From NCBI GenBank assembly GCA_905480195.1, contig CAJQPN010000005.1, positions 1 to 64,000 on the forward strand: a stretch of DNA of 64,000 nucleotides, read 5' to 3'. A program made the position numbers and the translations under genes. Below, in pieces: positions 1,145 to 30,506 of the stretch; within the stretch, counting starts at the first letter, position 1, and each line of letters opens with the position of its first letter. Source of the DNA: an uncultured Acidimicrobiales bacterium. Lineage in GTDB: Bacteria; Actinomycetota; Acidimicrobiia; Acidimicrobiales; Aldehydirespiratoraceae. Under the pieces are notes generated by a model. The model had not been told where the DNA came from, did no database searches, and was given only the letters and a program-made list of their open reading frames with translations.

Positions 1145-1616
1145 CGCCAACCTCGCGACGACGTCGGAGGTGAACGTGAGCCCTGGCTGCGCCCCACAAC
1201 AGCCCCGGTTCGTGGAGGGAGGGGTCGATATCGCTGAAGGCTGCCGGGCCGAGTCCGAACGGGTCATTCGGGAACTGCCGCTCCTGGAACTCGTCCCTCG
1301 GCGGGCGGGGCGATCCCCATGCTTCCAGGCACCTGGTCATTGCGCCGACGCCGGCCCTGAGCGACGCCAGCGGAGAGCCCACAGTCGCGTCGACATCAGC
1401 GGCGAGGAGCACTCGAAGCGATGGCATGACCACGGCGGCGGTCTCGACCGCAACACCGGATGCGGTCACCGGGTCGAACGCTGCGCCACCCCTCGCTCGA
1501 AGCGAACGCTCAACCCAGTCCGGGATCGCAGCCTCAACGCGATCGGCAAGGTCGAACGCAAACGCAGCGAGGCGCGCCTCGTCGTCTGCGAGCGTCACTT
1601 CGGGCTGCGCGTCCAC
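1137..1616 (-). CDS. Conserved-looking hypothetical protein
   Basis: GTG-started reading frame of 159 residues beginning with Met-Asp-Ala-Gln-Pro. The first half is helical and acidic (LADDEARLAAFAFDLADRV), with a middle segment DATVGSPLASLRAGVGAM and a basic tail (HVHLRRRREVGDG). There is no signal peptide or membrane segment. It is transcribed divergently from the aconitase X operon, with only 23 bp between the two starts, and overlaps the start of the receiver-like gene downstream by 8 bp, so the two probably act together. I do not recognise the family. The start codon is uncertain because no clear ribosome-binding site is visible. Confidence 0.6.
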   Translation of the reverse strand: MDAQPEVTLADDEARLAAFAFDLADRVEAAIPDWVERSLRARGGAAFDPVTASGVAVETAAVVMPSLRVLLAADVDATVGSPLASLRAGVGAMTRCLEAWGSPRPPRDEFQERQFPNDPFGLGPAAFSDIDPSLHEPGLLWGAARAHVHLRRRREVGDG

Positions 1617-1639
1617 GCCGTCAGACTACGGTGACGCCG

Positions 1640-2908
1640 ATGCCACTCACCCTCGACGACCGCGACCAAGCGCTTCTCAACGGCGATGGCGGTCCAGCCG
1701 CCGCCCTCGCAATGCGCATCGTCAGCCGGACCGCCGAAGTGATGCGAGCAGAGCGACTTGTCGACATCACCGGTGCCCACATCGACTCGTGCCTGTACAA
1801 CGGCCAGGCGAGCGTCGACTTTCCCAAGCGCCTCGCCGACGGTGGCGCTCAGGTCGTCGTGCCCGCGACCCTCAACGTCAGTTCACTCGACCTGATCCAC
1901 CCCGAACTCTTTCGAGGTGACGCCCACACCGCTTCGCAAGGGCGACTGTTGATGGAGCTCTACGAAGGCATGGGCTGCCAGCCGACGTTCACCTGCGCCC
2001 CGTACCAACAAGACAACCGACCCAACGTTGGTGAGCACGTTGCATGGGCCGAGTCCAACGCGATCGTGTTCGCCAACTCGGTCCTCGGCGCCCGCACACA
2101 CCGCTATGGCGATTTCCTCGACATCTCGGCTGCGATCACCGGGCGCGCTCCGCTCGCCGGCCTGCATCTCGACGCCAATCGCCGAGCGACGGTCGTCTTC
2201 GATGTGAGCGCTGTGCCCGAGCGACTGATCGCACTCGATGCGTTCTACCCTTTGCTCGGCCACCACATCGGCAAGCGGGTCGGCAAGGCGGTGCCGGTGG
2301 TGGTCGGCGCTCCGAACCACGTCGCCGAACATCTCCTCAAGGCCCTCGGCGCTGCCAGCGCAGCTGCCGGCGCAGTCGGCATGTTCCACCTCGTTGGCTC
2401 GACCCCGGAGGCACCGACGCTCGATGCCGCGCTCGGCGGCGAGCGCGCCGCCGAGACCTCTGTCGTGACCGCAGCTGACCTCCGACTGGCTCGAGATCAG
2501 CTGACCACCTCGACGTCGTCGAAGCTCGGTGTCGTAAGTCTGGGCACGCCGCATTACTCGGTGGCCGAATTCGGACGGGTGGTCGAGGCCCTCGACGGCC
2601 GCCGAGTCCATCCGAGTGTTCGGCTCTACATCAATACCGGCCGCAGCGTCGCCAACGAGATCGCACTGCGCGGTTGGATCCCGCTCCTCGAGGCCAGCGG
2701 GGTACAGATCGTCACCGACACCTGCACCTACATCACACCGATCATGGAAGATATCGACGGCGTCGCCATGACCGACTCCGCGAAATGGGCCTACTACGCC
2801 CCCGGCAATCTGGGCGTCGATGTTGCGTTCGGCTCGGTAGAAGATTGCATCGAATCGGCCGTGCGAGGCGAAATCGTCCGCGACGAAGGCGTGTGGGCCG
2901 ATGCCTGA
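1640..2908 (+). CDS. Aconitase X catalytic (large) subunit, cis-3-hydroxy-L-proline dehydratase type
   Basis: AcnX large-subunit family (DUF521), 422 residues from the ATG at 1640. Bacterial two-subunit AcnX enzymes dehydrate cis-3-hydroxy-L-proline to delta1-pyrroline-2-carboxylate, using an Fe-S cofactor and paired Cys residues. Visible family blocks are YNGQASVDFPKRLADGG near residue 50, FTCAPYQQDNRPNVGEHVAW around 115-135 and TDTCTYITPIMED around 360. The small (swivel) subunit follows with an 8-bp overlap, and a pyrroline-2-carboxylate reductase homologue faces it downstream, which supports a hydroxyproline role. The alternative known AcnX activity, archaeal phosphomevalonate dehydratase, is unlikely because ispD/ispF of the MEP pathway are in this window. 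The family is sure; the substrate is inferred from context. Confidence 0.88.
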   Translation: MPLTLDDRDQALLNGDGGPAAALAMRIVSRTAEVMRAERLVDITGAHIDSCLYNGQASVDFPKRLADGGAQVVVPATLNVSSLDLIHPELFRGDAHTASQGRLLMELYEGMGCQPTFTCAPYQQDNRPNVGEHVAWAESNAIVFANSVLGARTHRYGDFLDISAAITGRAPLAGLHLDANRRATVVFDVSAVPERLIALDAFYPLLGHHIGKRVGKAVPVVVGAPNHVAEHLLKALGAASAAAGAVGMFHLVGSTPEAPTLDAALGGERAAETSVVTAADLRLARDQLTTSTSSKLGVVSLGTPHYSVAEFGRVVEALDGRRVHPSVRLYINTGRSVANEIALRGWIPLLEASGVQIVTDTCTYITPIMEDIDGVAMTDSAKWAYYAPGNLGVDVAFGSVEDCIESAVRGEIVRDEGVWADA

Positions 2909-3311
2909 CGCCGAGCGCGTGTTGATGAGCGGTGAGGCCCGCGGCCCAGTTCTTCATCTCGAGGAGCCGATCAGCTTCTGGGGTGGCCTCGACCCGTGGA
3001 GTGGCACCATCATCGACCAGGCCCACCCCCAGGTCGGTGAGTCCATCGTCGGCCGCATCCTGTTGCTGCCGTCGGGGCGAGGCTCAAGCAGCGGTTCGTC
3101 GGTTCTGACCGAGGTTCTCCGAGCCGGGATCGGTCCGGCTGGGATCGTAATGCGGCACGCCGACGAGATTCTCGTGATCGGCGCACTCGCCGCCGAGGAG
3201 CTCTACGACATCACCGTGCCGATCTTCACGGTCGACGAAGCAACCTACGGCGCCCTCACCGCTGCCGACGCGATCGTGATGGCGCCGGATGGCACAATCA
3301 CGACCGGCTGA
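2901..3311 (+). CDS. Aconitase X swivel (small) subunit
   Basis: 136-residue protein of the DUF126/AcnX swivel-domain family, which packs on the large subunit to close the active site. The block ILLLPSGRGSSSGSSVL around residues 55-70 is the conserved substrate-binding PSGRGSSSGS loop. FWGGLDPWSGTIID near residues 29-42 is also typical. The ATG at 2901 overlaps the end of the large-subunit gene by 8 bp (ATGCCTGA), so the subunits are translationally coupled in a 1:1 arrangement. The usual length is about 130-140 residues, so it looks intact. Confidence 0.88.
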   Translation: MPDAERVLMSGEARGPVLHLEEPISFWGGLDPWSGTIIDQAHPQVGESIVGRILLLPSGRGSSSGSSVLTEVLRAGIGPAGIVMRHADEILVIGALAAEELYDITVPIFTVDEATYGALTAADAIVMAPDGTITTG

Positions 3312-3394
3312 CGCAGATAACCATTCGGAGTTCACCGGGTCGACCGCTCCACCGACCGAACCTTGCGAGCTCTCCAGCCAGCCGGCGTCGTCGA

Positions 3395-4324
3395 TCAGCC
3401 GAGGGCGAGGCGAGCAGCCGCCAGATCCTCGAGCGCCGTTCCCGCCGACTTGAACATCGTGATCTCGTCGTTGCGGGTGCGGCCCGGATGGGTTCCGGCG
3501 ACGAGTTCGGCGAGGTCGGCGGCCAGATCGGCTCGGGTGAGGACACCGGACTCGAGAGGCTGCGCGATATCGCCAGCAATGACCGCATCGTCGTAGGTGT
3601 CGACGAAAACCGATGCCCGTCGTACGACGTCGTCATCGGCTTCACGCATGGCGCGGTTGAAGCCCCCGATCAGATCGACGTGCGTCCCTTCGCGCAGCAG
3701 TGCACCGCGCACGATCGGCTGTGTGGCCCCGGTGACACACGAGATGACGTCGGCGTCGGCCACTGCAGCATCGAGATCCGTGACCACGTCGGCCGACAGC
3801 CCTTCTGCAGCCAGCGCATCGACGACCGCTGCCGCCTTCGCTCGGTCGCGCCCCCAGACCCGGATTGAGTCGAAGTCTCGAACCGCAGCATGGGCCTGCG
3901 CAGCCATTGGTGCCAGCGCACCCGACCCAACCACCAGCAACGTTCGGGCATCAGGTCGGGCAAGGCGCTTCGCAGCGACCGCCGAGGCCGCTGCGGTGCG
4001 GCGAGTGGTCAGCACGTTTGCTTCGCAGGCCCCGACGAGCGATCCCGTCGTACCGTCGAACAGCAATACGCCTGCTTGCACCATCGGGAGCTCCTGCGCA
4101 CCGTTGTCAGGGAAGACCGTCACCGCCTTCACCCCGATCAATTCCCCAGCGACCCACCCAGGCTTCAAGAGGAACGAAGCATCGTTGCCGTTGCCGTCGG
4201 GCACCGTGTGGAGCGTGCGAGCCGGCGAGGTGGCACCCGGCTCGACCATGATCTGCTCAATCGCCTCGATCAGGGCTGGCCACGGCAGCGCTGCTCCGAT
4301 GTCGGCGTCGGTGAAGAATCTCAC
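3395..4324 (-). CDS. Ornithine cyclodeaminase/mu-crystallin family reductase, probable delta1-pyrroline-2-carboxylate reductase
   Basis: About 309 residues of the OCD/mu-crystallin fold: an N-terminal dimerisation part (RFFTDADIGAALPWPALIEA), then a Rossmann NAD(P)-binding segment LLVVGSGALAPMAAQAH near residue 125, and THVDLIGGFNRAMREAD with DTYDDAV in the C-terminal half. Family members reduce delta1-pyrroline-2-carboxylate to L-proline, or deaminate ornithine or alanine. Its position facing aconitase X, whose product is delta1-pyrroline-2-carboxylate, favours the reductase role. I chose GTG at 4324 because GTGA overlaps the upstream stop and a GGGGGGA stretch lies 6 nt before it; an ATG at 4339 is the alternative. 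Translation is probably coupled to the AhpD-like gene. Confidence 0.82.
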   Translation of the reverse strand: MRFFTDADIGAALPWPALIEAIEQIMVEPGATSPARTLHTVPDGNGNDASFLLKPGWVAGELIGVKAVTVFPDNGAQELPMVQAGVLLFDGTTGSLVGACEANVLTTRRTAAASAVAAKRLARPDARTLLVVGSGALAPMAAQAHAAVRDFDSIRVWGRDRAKAAAVVDALAAEGLSADVVTDLDAAVADADVISCVTGATQPIVRGALLREGTHVDLIGGFNRAMREADDDVVRRASVFVDTYDDAVIAGDIAQPLESGVLTRADLAADLAELVAGTHPGRTRNDEITMFKSAGTALEDLAAARLALG

Positions 4325-4902
4325 CCGTCGTCCCCCCAATGACCCATCGGTGGCTCCGGTGGGTACCAGTCTTCGATTTCGATCCCGAGGCCATCGGCGA
4401 TCCGATTGGCATACGCGTAGTAGGCCGTCACGTCGCAGATGTCGAGGACATCGCGATCAGTGAAACCGGCAGCTCGCAGTGCGTCGACGTCGGCCTCGAC
4501 CATTTCGCCCGGCGTCCGCGTGAGCTTGACTGCATAGGTGAGCATTGCCGTCCGCTTGAGGTCGAGCCCGGCGGTCTCCCAACCCTCGTCGATCCGGGCG
4601 AGCAGTGCATCGTCTTTGAGAAGTCGGCGCAGACCGCGACGGTGGTGCGTAAGTCAATAGTGACAGTCGTTGATGTCGGAGACGATGTAGGCAATCAACT
4701 CTCGTTCGACCTTGCGCAACGTCTTCGTTCCCGCCATCGCCGACCGATACAACGCATCGTGGGCGGCAACGCTCGCTGCGTTGAGCGAATGGACGCTCAT
4801 GATGTTGTCGATCCGGTTCGCATCGCGGTCCACGACCCGTTCGCGGAGCGGTTCGAGATCGCCACTCCAGTTGTCGTCCGGAACCCGTTCGATCCACGCC
4901 AT
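4321..4902 (-). CDS. AhpD-like peroxidase-related protein, candidate selenoprotein (in-frame TGA = Sec83)
   Basis: A single reading frame of 193 residues if the TGA at 4656-4654 is read as an amino acid. The family (AhpD/carboxymuconolactone decarboxylase superfamily, peroxidase-related branch) has the redox signature E-x11-C-x2-C-x3-H. Here E68, C80 and H87 are all present and the TGA falls exactly on the second Cys (DCHY-TGA-LTHH). The 110 residues after the TGA continue the family sequence without a frame change (RGLRRLLKDDALL, TAMLTYAVKLTRTPGEM, DVLDICDVTAYYAYANRIADG). A SECIS-like hairpin follows the TGA (separate entry). AGGAGGAG lies 5 nt before the ATG at 4902. The downstream reductase starts within the final stop (GTGA), which needs ribosomes to reach that stop. 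Likely role: thiol/selenol peroxidase or disulfide reductase. If TGA is not decoded, the product is an 82-residue fragment. Confidence 0.85.
4621..4656 (-). promoter_or_regulatory. SECIS-like element immediately after the TGA codon
   Basis: Minus strand. After the TGA (4656-4654) come 18 nt and then GGTCTGC (4635-4629). A CGC/GCG stem (4638-4636 with 4630-4628) closes a GGTCT loop, with GTCG/CGAC (4640-4637 with 4626-4623) as an alternative or outer pairing. In E. coli fdhF the UGA is also followed by 18 nt and then a GGUCU apical loop that SelB binds. The spacing and loop are seen; SelB binding is inferred. Confidence 0.7.
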
Positions 4903-4943
4903 GACCGCTCCTCCTGAAGAACGAGGACGCTAGCGTACGTCGC

Positions 4944-5750
4944 ATGACTCACCCGGACCTCGCAGGGAAGGTCGTCGTCGTCACCGGCGCCGGCAAGGGA
5001 ATCGGCCAGGCAATCGCAGAACGCTTCGGCTCGGTCGGCTCATCGGTCGTCGTAAACGACGTCGACACGACCACAGCAGAGGGGGTGGCCGCCGGCATCA
5101 ACGACGCCGGCGGCACCGCGATCGCCGCCCCCGCCGACGTATCCGACAGCGGTCAGGTCGGGGGCATGTTCGACCGCACCGTCGATACCTTCGGCACCGT
5201 TGATGTGCTGGTCAACAATGCCGGCCTCGTGAGCCCGATGTTGCACTTCTTTGACGCCGACGAAACGTGGTGGCGGCGGATCATCGACGTGAACCTCACC
5301 GGGCACTTCCTGTGCTGTCACGTCGCCGCCCGCATCATGGCCAAGAAGGGCGGGGGCTCAATCATCAATATGAGTTCCGGCGGGGCCACGCGGGCCCATC
5401 GAAGCTTCACCGCCTACGACGCAAGCAAGGGTGGTATCGAGGCGCTCACACGCGCGATGGCGCTCGACCTCGGCCCCTACAACGTTCGGGTCAATGCCTT
5501 GATGCCCGGCTCGATCGATACCGCCGGCATGGACGAGGAGGCTCGGGCCTACCGAGGCCTCAACATTCCCGCAGGGCGGATCGGCGATCCGTACGACATG
5601 ACCGGGCCCGCACTGTTCCTCGCCAGTGACGACGCCGCCTACATCACCGGTGACGTCATCAAGGTCGACGGCGGCATGCTCGCCCAGCAGCGATCGGCAA
5701 CCGTCGACATCGTGCACCCCGACACGTTTCCCGCAGTCGAAGACCTTTAG
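4944..5750 (+). CDS. Short-chain dehydrogenase/reductase (SDR)
   Basis: 268-residue classical SDR, a cytoplasmic NAD(P)-dependent oxidoreductase. Visible motifs are the cofactor-binding TGAGKGIG at about residues 15-22, NNAG near 90, the catalytic Ser in NMSSGG and the YDASK (Tyr-x3-Lys) active site around 157-161, then the PG motif in NALMPGSID. An Asp after the second strand (VVNDVD) suggests NAD preference. It starts 41 bp after the divergent AhpD-like gene and is followed, after 3 bp, by the ThDP enzyme, so these two form one transcription unit. The substrate cannot be told; a 3-hydroxyacyl- or sugar-type alcohol dehydrogenase are both possible. Confidence 0.85.
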   Translation: MTHPDLAGKVVVVTGAGKGIGQAIAERFGSVGSSVVVNDVDTTTAEGVAAGINDAGGTAIAAPADVSDSGQVGGMFDRTVDTFGTVDVLVNNAGLVSPMLHFFDADETWWRRIIDVNLTGHFLCCHVAARIMAKKGGGSIINMSSGGATRAHRSFTAYDASKGGIEALTRAMALDLGPYNVRVNALMPGSIDTAGMDEEARAYRGLNIPAGRIGDPYDMTGPALFLASDDAAYITGDVIKVDGGMLAQQRSATVDIVHPDTFPAVEDL

Positions 5751-5753
5751 GCC

Positions 5754-7406
5754 GTGGGCGCGATCCGTACCGGTGGCCAAATCGTTGTCGACGCCCTCGT
5801 CTCCCACGGAGTCACTCACGCCTTCGGCGTACCCGGCGAGAGCTACCTCGCGGTGCTCGATGCCCTTCACGACACCGACATCGACTTCGTCATCTGCCGC
5901 CAGGAAGGCGGAGCTGCCTACATGGCCGAAGCCTGGGGCCGACTCACCGGCTCACCCGGTATCTGCATGGTCACCCGCGGGCCGGGAGCAACCAACGCGT
6001 CAGCCGGCATCCACGCCGCACGCGAGAACTCCCAACCGATGGTGGTGCTGATCGGGCAGGTCAGTACCCATGAGATTGGGCGTGAAGCCTTTCAAGAGCT
6101 CGACTACCAGCGCTTTCTCGGTTCACTCACCAAATGGGTGAACCAAGTCGACCACGTCGACGACCTCGCCGAAACAATGCAGCACGCGTTCAAGATCGCC
6201 GTGTCGGGTCGGCCCGGACCAGTAGCAATCGCGCTCCCCGAGGACATGCTTCGGGCATCGACCGCGGCGACTGACGTAACACCACTCGAGATCGAACGCG
6301 CAACGCCGACCGACGCCGAGATCGATGCGATCATCGCCGAACTGGAAACAGCCGAACGCCCCGTGATCATCGCCGGCGGTGGTCGCTGGACGCTCGATGC
6401 TCGCGTCGACCTCGCCGCGTTTGCCGAGGACAACGACATTCCAGTCGTCGCTGCGTGGCGGTTTCACGACCTCATGGACAACCACAGCGGCCACTTCGTG
6501 GGTGAAGCAGGCATCGCGATGGTGGCGGCTGTGCGAGACACGATCCTCGATGCCGATGTCATTGTCGGGCTCGGCATCCGGTTCGGTGAGATGACAACCG
6601 CCGCCTGGACCCTGATCGATCTCGACGAGCCCACCCAGCGAATCGTTCACGTACACCCCGAGAGGACCCAGATCGGCCGGATCTACCCGACCACCGTGGG
6701 CGTCTGTGGCGACCCATCGGTAACCATTGGCCTCCTCCGCAATCGCACCGTGGCAGGAGCCGAGCAGCGGGCCGAATGGCGGACCACGCGTCGGGCCGCC
6801 TTCCTCGACGGCTTCGGAGCGCCACCCCAGCCTGGAGATCTCGACATGGCCGAGGGGATGCGCTGGCTCGAGGCCAACCTCCCCGACGACGTGATCCTCA
6901 CCAACGGCGCCGGCAACTTCTCGATCTGGAACGGCAAGCTCTTCCGTTACGGCGCCGAAGCGCGTCTCTTGGCCCCCCAGAACGGCACCATGGGCTATGG
7001 CCTGCCGGCCGCCATCGCGGCCAAGGCCGCGTACCCCGATCGCACGGTCATCTGTTTCGCCGGCGACGGTGACTTCCAGATGACAATGCAGGAACTGGGA
7101 ACGGCTCGACAGGCCGGACTCGAACCCATCGTGCTCGTATTCGACAACGCGATGTACGGCACGATCCGAGCCCACCAGGAACGTAGCTATCCCGAGCGAA
7201 TCAGCGGGACGCCGATCGTCAACCCTGACTTCGTCGCGATCGCCGAGGCCTACGGCATGCACGCCGAGCGGATCGAGCGGACCGAACAGTTCGGCCCGGC
7301 GATGAAGCGAGCGATGGCGTCGGGGACCGGCGCACTCCTGCACTTAGTGATGCCGGCTGACCGGCTCACCCCCTGGGCATCCGTCGCCGACGTTCGGCCC
7401 GACTGA
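5754..7406 (+). CDS. Thiamine-diphosphate enzyme, acetolactate synthase large-subunit-like
   Basis: 550 residues with the three-domain ThDP fold. The N-terminal PYR domain carries GVPGESYLAVLDAL (the catalytic Glu that activates ThDP) and RQEGGAAYMAEAWGRLTG. The middle domain follows, and the C-terminal PP domain has MGYGLPAAIAAKAA and the GDG...N metal/ThDP motif (GDGDFQMTMQEL then FDN). It begins with GTG 3 bp after the SDR stop. No small regulatory subunit or KARI follows, so biosynthetic IlvB is unlikely. A catabolic decarboxylase or ligase of the glyoxylate carboligase/benzoylformate decarboxylase type is as likely. The exact reaction is not assignable from sequence. Confidence 0.82.
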   Translation: MGAIRTGGQIVVDALVSHGVTHAFGVPGESYLAVLDALHDTDIDFVICRQEGGAAYMAEAWGRLTGSPGICMVTRGPGATNASAGIHAARENSQPMVVLIGQVSTHEIGREAFQELDYQRFLGSLTKWVNQVDHVDDLAETMQHAFKIAVSGRPGPVAIALPEDMLRASTAATDVTPLEIERATPTDAEIDAIIAELETAERPVIIAGGGRWTLDARVDLAAFAEDNDIPVVAAWRFHDLMDNHSGHFVGEAGIAMVAAVRDTILDADVIVGLGIRFGEMTTAAWTLIDLDEPTQRIVHVHPERTQIGRIYPTTVGVCGDPSVTIGLLRNRTVAGAEQRAEWRTTRRAAFLDGFGAPPQPGDLDMAEGMRWLEANLPDDVILTNGAGNFSIWNGKLFRYGAEARLLAPQNGTMGYGLPAAIAAKAAYPDRTVICFAGDGDFQMTMQELGTARQAGLEPIVLVFDNAMYGTIRAHQERSYPERISGTPIVNPDFVAIAEAYGMHAERIERTEQFGPAMKRAMASGTGALLHLVMPADRLTPWASVADVRPD

Positions 7407-30429: not shown

Positions 30430-30502
30430 GCCCGTGTAGCTCAGTTGGTAGAGCAGCTGTCTTGTAAACAGCAGGTCGCAGGTTCGATCCCTGTCGCGGG
30501 CT
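30430..30502 (+). tRNA. tRNA-Thr (anticodon TGT)
   Basis: A 73-nt cloverleaf: acceptor arm GCCCGTG paired with CGCGGGC (one G-U), D-arm GCTC...GAGC, anticodon arm GCTGT/ACAGC around the loop CTTGTAA, giving anticodon TGT for threonine ACA and related codons, and T-arm with GGTTCGATCC. The discriminator is T and CCA is not encoded. It sits between the LytR_C gene and the 3' end of rlmB. Confidence 0.95.
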
Positions 30503-30506
30503 CGGT

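Follow-up and report, generated by a model that had tools for sequence, protein, structure and literature searches.

CXXU AhpD-like selenoproteins were reported in 2005 from the Sargasso Sea (PMC1088965), and are also listed in PMC2398784. A 2026 family list tabulates an 'AhpD-like protein, TIGR01926, CxxU' (PMC13188914). The bSECIS model of the same article has an apical loop of 3-9 nt on an upper stem of 4-16 bp, a G at the first or second loop position, frequently with G or U after it, and 16-37 nt from the UGA to the apical loop (PMC13188914). No description of a UGA-18-GGUCU layout for the TIGR01926 AhpD-like family was found in the accessible parts of the texts, figures aside, of PMC1088965, PMC2398784, PMC13188914 and PMC12013277. 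A limited literature search, with databases outside its scope, returned no paper on selenocysteine or selenoprotein together with Acidimicrobi, nor on selenocysteine together with Actinomarina. The enzyme family is already known as a selenoprotein family, and the gene described here is a well-supported addition to it, not a new kind of system.

The gene lies in the window, by which we mean the whole 64-kb stretch of DNA that was analysed, taken from a draft genome of 2.78 Mb in 66 contigs (87 % complete). We consider it highly probable that codon 83, a UGA, is read as selenocysteine (Sec) by means of a downstream GGUCU hairpin, giving a full-length AhpD-like C80-x-x-U83 enzyme. The features of the locus are listed below, positive numbers counting nucleotides downstream of the UGA.

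4910..4915, minus strand: AGGAGG, Shine-Dalgarno-like, 7 nt 5' of the ATG, read from the sequence
4321..4902, minus strand: AhpD-like (TIGR01926) selenoprotein gene, 193 residues if the codon 83 TGA is read as Sec; stop TGA at 4321-4323
4663..4665, minus strand: Cys80 codon, partner Cys of the CxxU, conserved as Cys in 99/100 homologue loci
4654..4656, minus strand: in-frame UGA, codon 83, predicted Sec (U83) in the active site C80-x-x-U83-x-x-x-H87
4636..4653, minus strand: 18-nt spacer from UGA to loop, its last six bases (4636-4641) being the 5' arm
4636..4641, minus strand: 5' arm of the putative SECIS hairpin, CGUCGC (+13..+18), with the mismatch base U 4639 (+15)
4631..4635, minus strand: apical loop GGUCU (+19..+23), found in 56 of 58 clade A loci, the other two having GGGCU
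4625..4630, minus strand: 3' arm of the putative SECIS hairpin, GCGCCG (+24..+29), with C 4627 (+27) opposite U 4639

The gene starts with an ATG downstream of the AGGAGG. The read-through protein matches Pfam CMD PF02627 (44.2 bits) and the NCBIfam model TIGR01926 'peroxidase-related enzyme' (129.7 bits, above the cut-off of 81.8); the query protein used in the searches had one extra residue, the terminal stop TGA having also been translated. The best PDB matches of its structure model (pLDDT 94.2, from a 38-row alignment) by Foldseek are 3c1l, 2pfx and 2prr, and the nearest solved structures have a Cys at the position of the window's TGA (CYYC in 3c1l). The CMD domain, the all-helical AhpD fold and the E-C-C-H active site of the AhpD fold and CMD family were all found; E68, C80, U83 and H87 are conserved, and C80 and Y82 are kept among homologues. 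Relative to codon 83, Glu at -15, Cys at -3 and His at +4 are present in 58/58 clade A, 21/21 clade B and 20/21 Cys loci, a spacing that we take to be that of the AhpD active site (M. tuberculosis AhpD). The product is most likely a thiol-dependent hydroperoxide reductase or a related dithiol/selenothiol oxidoreductase. NF041238 AhpD_rel_CFYUT is likewise an AhpD-related CxxU family, but a separate one, and membership of it was rejected (45.5 bits against a cut-off of 175).

The window gene resembles the known AhpD-like TIGR01926 CxxU family in its TIGR01926 match and in having a predicted Sec for the second Cys of CxxC. It differs from the earlier members in being a chromosomal locus of an Acidimicrobiia-type genome with a full Sec pathway, and in belonging to a lineage with an RRGLRR peptide in which the SECIS is conserved and of the fdhF type.

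We assembled a homologue set of 100 loci, of which 30 and 60 were fetched from the matches listed and all 10 of a further search were added; the set leaves aside further TGA matches of the streamlined genomes f29/g65 and lower Cys matches. Codon 83, aligned with the second Cys of CxxC, is TGA in 79 loci and a Cys codon in 21. We define clade A as the loci with a tblastn E below 1e-60, which gives 58 loci including the window; some of the 10 added loci are probably the same species as survey genomes, and 57 of the 58 clade A 60-nt stretches are distinct. TGA is found at codon 83 in all 58, spread over many families of the class, and in 9/9 genus genomes. The remaining 21 TGA loci form clade B of AhpD-like Sec genes (L075-L083, L085-L088, L090-L093, L111-L114), which share the fold family and the TGA codon, but have the loop 6-7 nt further down, in other codons, and with other sequences (GGUC, GGGC, GUGC and others). 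In the tree, Sec clade A, Sec clade B and the Cys forms are separate, clades A and B each lying on one side of a supported branch; this is a quick protein tree with long Cys branches and an unsure root, and it is compatible with one or two gains of Sec.

The original prediction had held that the loop and its distance from the UGA are those of E. coli fdhF, and the coordinates and the E. coli genome bear out both. In the window the TGA (4654-4656, minus strand) is followed by 18 nt and then GGTCTGC (4629-4635), exactly as is the codon 140 TGA of fdhF in E. coli K-12 (NC_000913), and in both genes GGU CUG encodes Gly-Leu at Sec+7/+8. The protein and the stem sequence are different, and the E. 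coli stem is interrupted while the 6-7 bp of the window's relatives are unbroken. The 18-nt spacing and the GGUCU loop with its leading G also agree with the bSECIS model. Such a match had been thought unlikely by chance, which does not apply to the bare motif: TGA-N18-GGTCTGC occurs once in the 64-kb window with 0.25 expected, and 23 of 100 shuffles contain at least one. It does apply once the family is included. As the bare motif is not rare, what gives it weight is its setting in the gene and the family, where GGTCT stands at exactly +19..+23 in 56/58 clade A loci and GGGCT in 2/58 (L066, L041). Two genomes from outside the class (L135, L136) also have GGTCT at this distance.

The stem is more a property of the family than of the window. 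In clade A, 98.1 % of cells in the arms +13..+18 and +24..+29 pair (52 distinct rows), compared with at most 55.8 % when the partner is shifted by one to three columns. Changes on both sides occur in 10 cells, where shuffling gives a mean of 1.3. The RRGLRR peptide is near-invariant (55/58 clade A loci), so that it fixes most of the stem bases that fall on first or second codon positions. At +15/+27 two third-codon positions face each other; they pair in 57/58 rows (GC 42, CG 6, GU 5, AU 3, UA 1 and UC 1, the UC row being the window), and the quick protein tree requires 12 or more changes of this pair; an independent-pairs sign test for co-variation on that tree had too few pairs and was underpowered. 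Covariation in homologues, which had been proposed as a check, was examined with the result that the stem is kept and +15/+27 co-varies in clade A. The relatives show a clear stem of 6-7 bp with GGUCU as a pentaloop, the closing pair being broken in L044.

The hairpin of the window itself is weak, yet close to the E. coli element by folding energy. Counting outwards from the loop, its stem has three pairs, a U x C mismatch and two further pairs. With one program the hairpin energies are -3.5 kcal/mol for the window, -3.3 for the E. coli mini-hairpin (-4.2 kcal/mol in its own best fold) and -10.7 for the consensus stem of the relatives. In contexts of 41-61 nt, the window hairpin is not the predicted fold, does not outscore shuffles (z -0.04 to 0.35) and has pair probabilities of about 0.01; the stretch +11..+34 alone is predicted to form a bulged hairpin at -6.9 with the loop shifted by one base. 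Nor does the window do better than its synonymous recodings (z +0.38), and a search of 4560-4720 with Rfam gave no match to a SECIS family. When folded from the UGA to +42, the apical pair +17/+25 reaches a probability of at least 0.9 in 48/58 clade A loci, compared with 0.01 in the window. Measured against the bSECIS loop and stem, the family has a pentaloop with 6 bp in 52/58 loci, and the window a pentaloop on its three pairs, mismatch and two pairs, not as the favoured fold. The short GC stem that had been proposed to place GGTCT in the loop is therefore a 6-bp stem in the family and a mismatched, disfavoured one in the window, and the folding check that had been suggested gives a stable hairpin for the family and none for the window in its context. 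The U at +15 is silent, and sister species (91-92 % protein identity) have a G there. The mismatch may be tolerated, may mark an allele of lower efficiency, or may be an error of assembly.

The source genome contains what the decoding of UGA as Sec would require. SelA adjoins SelB (TIGR00474, 375.6 bits; TIGR00475, 300.6 bits; both over cut-off), and a tRNA-Sec is found at 64 bits, also called tRNA-SeC by ARAGORN. The SelD gene (L115, G000:C3:80795-81721) has an in-frame TGA followed after 32 nt by a 7-bp hairpin with the loop GGUCG, and is predicted to encode a Sec-containing selenophosphate synthetase. With SelA, SelB, tRNA-Sec and SelD, the Sec pathway that belongs with an AhpD-like TIGR01926 CxxU selenoprotein was found. 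The FdhA gene (L144, G000:C15:45546-47414; 621.5 bits spanning positions 51-672, under the cut-off of 666.25) has an in-frame TGA, 18 nt and a 7-bp hairpin with the loop GGUCU, with Gly-Leu again at +7/+8. As FdhA and the AhpD-like protein are unrelated, this likeness points to a shared solution for the same SelB and not to common coding descent. Across the class, the clade A gene was found in 49/296 genomes, among the matches listed. A tRNA-Sec is present in 44/49 of these genomes versus 149/247 others (p 3e-5; the 193 tRNA-Sec and 49 clade A genomes were compiled by hand), and SelB is over cut-off in 47/49, counted by eye, compared with 161/296 overall. One further clade A genome, G058, has SelB split over two contigs; five of the 49 have no tRNA-Sec match, and one of them (G245) has neither tRNA-Sec nor SelB over cut-off. 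Draft assemblies may explain the missing tRNA-Sec and SelB.

It is conceivable that the motif reflects coding constraint, from Arg-Arg-Gly-Leu-Arg-Arg in GC-rich codons, or chance, with the TGA decoded without the Sec machinery or terminating translation. The near-invariant peptide, the frequency of the bare motif and the imperfect stem of the window are all in line with such an explanation. What stands against it is that third-codon positions are constrained and co-vary. The Gly codon of the loop is GGT in 56/58 clade A loci, compared with 102 of 473 Gly codons elsewhere in the same genes. A synonymous recoding null, with codons drawn from the usage of the same genes, expects the full stem in 10.3 %, GGTCT in 17.9 % and both in 1.9 %, and we observed 52/58, 56/58 and 50/58 respectively in clade A. 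Coding constraint would also leave the same sequence in homologues with Cys, as the original prediction had pointed out. GGTCT is found at the loop site in 0/21 Cys loci, which have ATCCT (10), GCCCT (3), GGCCT (2) and others, although L053 and L054 encode Gly-Leu there too, with the Gly written GGC. The genome moreover encodes the Sec pathway along with two other Sec genes. On the codon bias, the recoding null and the Cys loci, we reject chance or coding constraint, which we judge very improbable. We also asked whether the RNA dictates the RRGLRR peptide; L053 and L054, both Cys homologues, already have Gly-Leu at +7/+8.

A different possibility is that the family consists of selenoproteins but the SECIS of the window allele is damaged, so that translation mostly ends at codon 82, in a decaying gene or a weak allele. 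The window is indeed the sole U x C row among 58, and its hairpin is not the predicted fold. The gene is however otherwise intact, with 91-92 % identity to the sister species and conserved active-site residues, it keeps the loop and the spacing, and its mismatched stem (-3.5) is on a par with the E. coli minimal one (-3.3); a single-base assembly error is possible as well. We regard a damaged allele as unlikely. A pseudogene, in which Cys or another codon was mutated to TGA in one lineage, gains something from the draft state of the assembly (66 contigs, 87 % complete), but with the TGA at the same codon throughout clade A and the genus this has a negligible probability and was rejected. Taken together, these results favour Sec at codon 83: the proposal of an fdhF-type SECIS-like element in a selenoprotein gene holds for the family and very probably for this gene, given its loop, spacing and genome context.

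Decoding of codon 83 as Sec would proceed by analogy with the E. coli mechanism. When the ribosome reaches the UGA, the downstream mRNA hairpin would present its GGUCU loop 18 nt past the codon, and SelB with GTP and Sec-tRNA(Sec) would bind the loop with the UGA still unread in the A site. Delivery of Sec-tRNA(Sec) would then out-compete release factor 2 and Sec would be inserted at residue 83, replacing the second Cys of CxxC and yielding an AhpD-like CxxU enzyme. SelB binding, Sec insertion, catalysis and substrate are steps that we infer.

Other arrangements were seen in related organisms. Small streamlined genomes of the class (L087, L088, L090-L093, L111, L112, L114; f29/g65, about 1 Mb) keep the Sec pathway, with a tRNA-Sec of about 75 bits, SelA beside a divergent SelB in L129 (the SelB at 194 bits, short of its curated cut-off of 242) and a Sec AhpD-like gene whose hairpin reads UCUCC-GGUC-GGAGA. 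Distant TIGR01926-like genes in other classes of the phylum (L137-L139, L141, L143) have TGA at the same codon but differ in the hairpins that follow it, some of which lack a GGUC loop. One protein family may contain several Sec lineages whose signals are placed differently.

The genes around the selenoprotein gene are the following.

3395..4324, minus strand: downstream gene of the Delta1-pyrroline-2-carboxylate reductase type (PRK06141), 361 bits, cut-off 322
1460..2908, plus strand: aconitase X large part, cis-3-hydroxy-L-proline dehydratase-like, context
2901..3311, plus strand: aconitase X swivel part, context
4944..5750, plus strand: SDR oxidoreductase, divergent, context
5754..7406, plus strand: thiamine-pyrophosphate enzyme, acetolactate-synthase-like, context

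The aconitase X parts and the reductase (1460-4324), conserved across the genus, resemble a hydroxyproline-type catabolic cluster, and the open reading frames indicate a Liv-type ABC transporter close by. Rfam detected a single RNA gene in the window, a tRNA-Thr (TGT) at 30430-30503. Aconitase X, pyrroline-carboxylate reductase, SDR and TPP enzyme recur as neighbours in the genus and in loci close to it. This neighbourhood is absent, bar a weak SDR match in L041, from 26 of 28 more distant clade A loci with at least 1.4 kb (exceptions L027 and L052), most of which were compared over about 1.5 kb on each side. The substrate is therefore not revealed by the neighbours. The GTG start of the reductase overlaps the selenoprotein stop in the window (GTGA), and an RTGA stop/start overlap is found in 8/8 loci examined, the window and seven relatives. 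This suggests that the selenoprotein and the reductase are probably translated in a coupled way. One could imagine a selenium-gated operon in which most of the reductase comes from ribosomes that have read through the UGA, so that SelB-dependent recoding, and with it selenium supply, sets the reductase level; we hold this to be distinctly unlikely. If true, selenium status would be linked to the hydroxyproline-type pathway of the neighbouring aconitase X and reductase genes.

The gene, which automated annotation might truncate at codon 82 or flag as defective, is very probably an intact selenoprotein gene. An AhpD-like and an FdhA gene in one actinobacterial genome, with the same UGA-18-GGUCU as E. 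coli fdhF, make a clean set for the requirements of SelB, and the single silent mismatch of the window would offer a natural mutant with which to test them.
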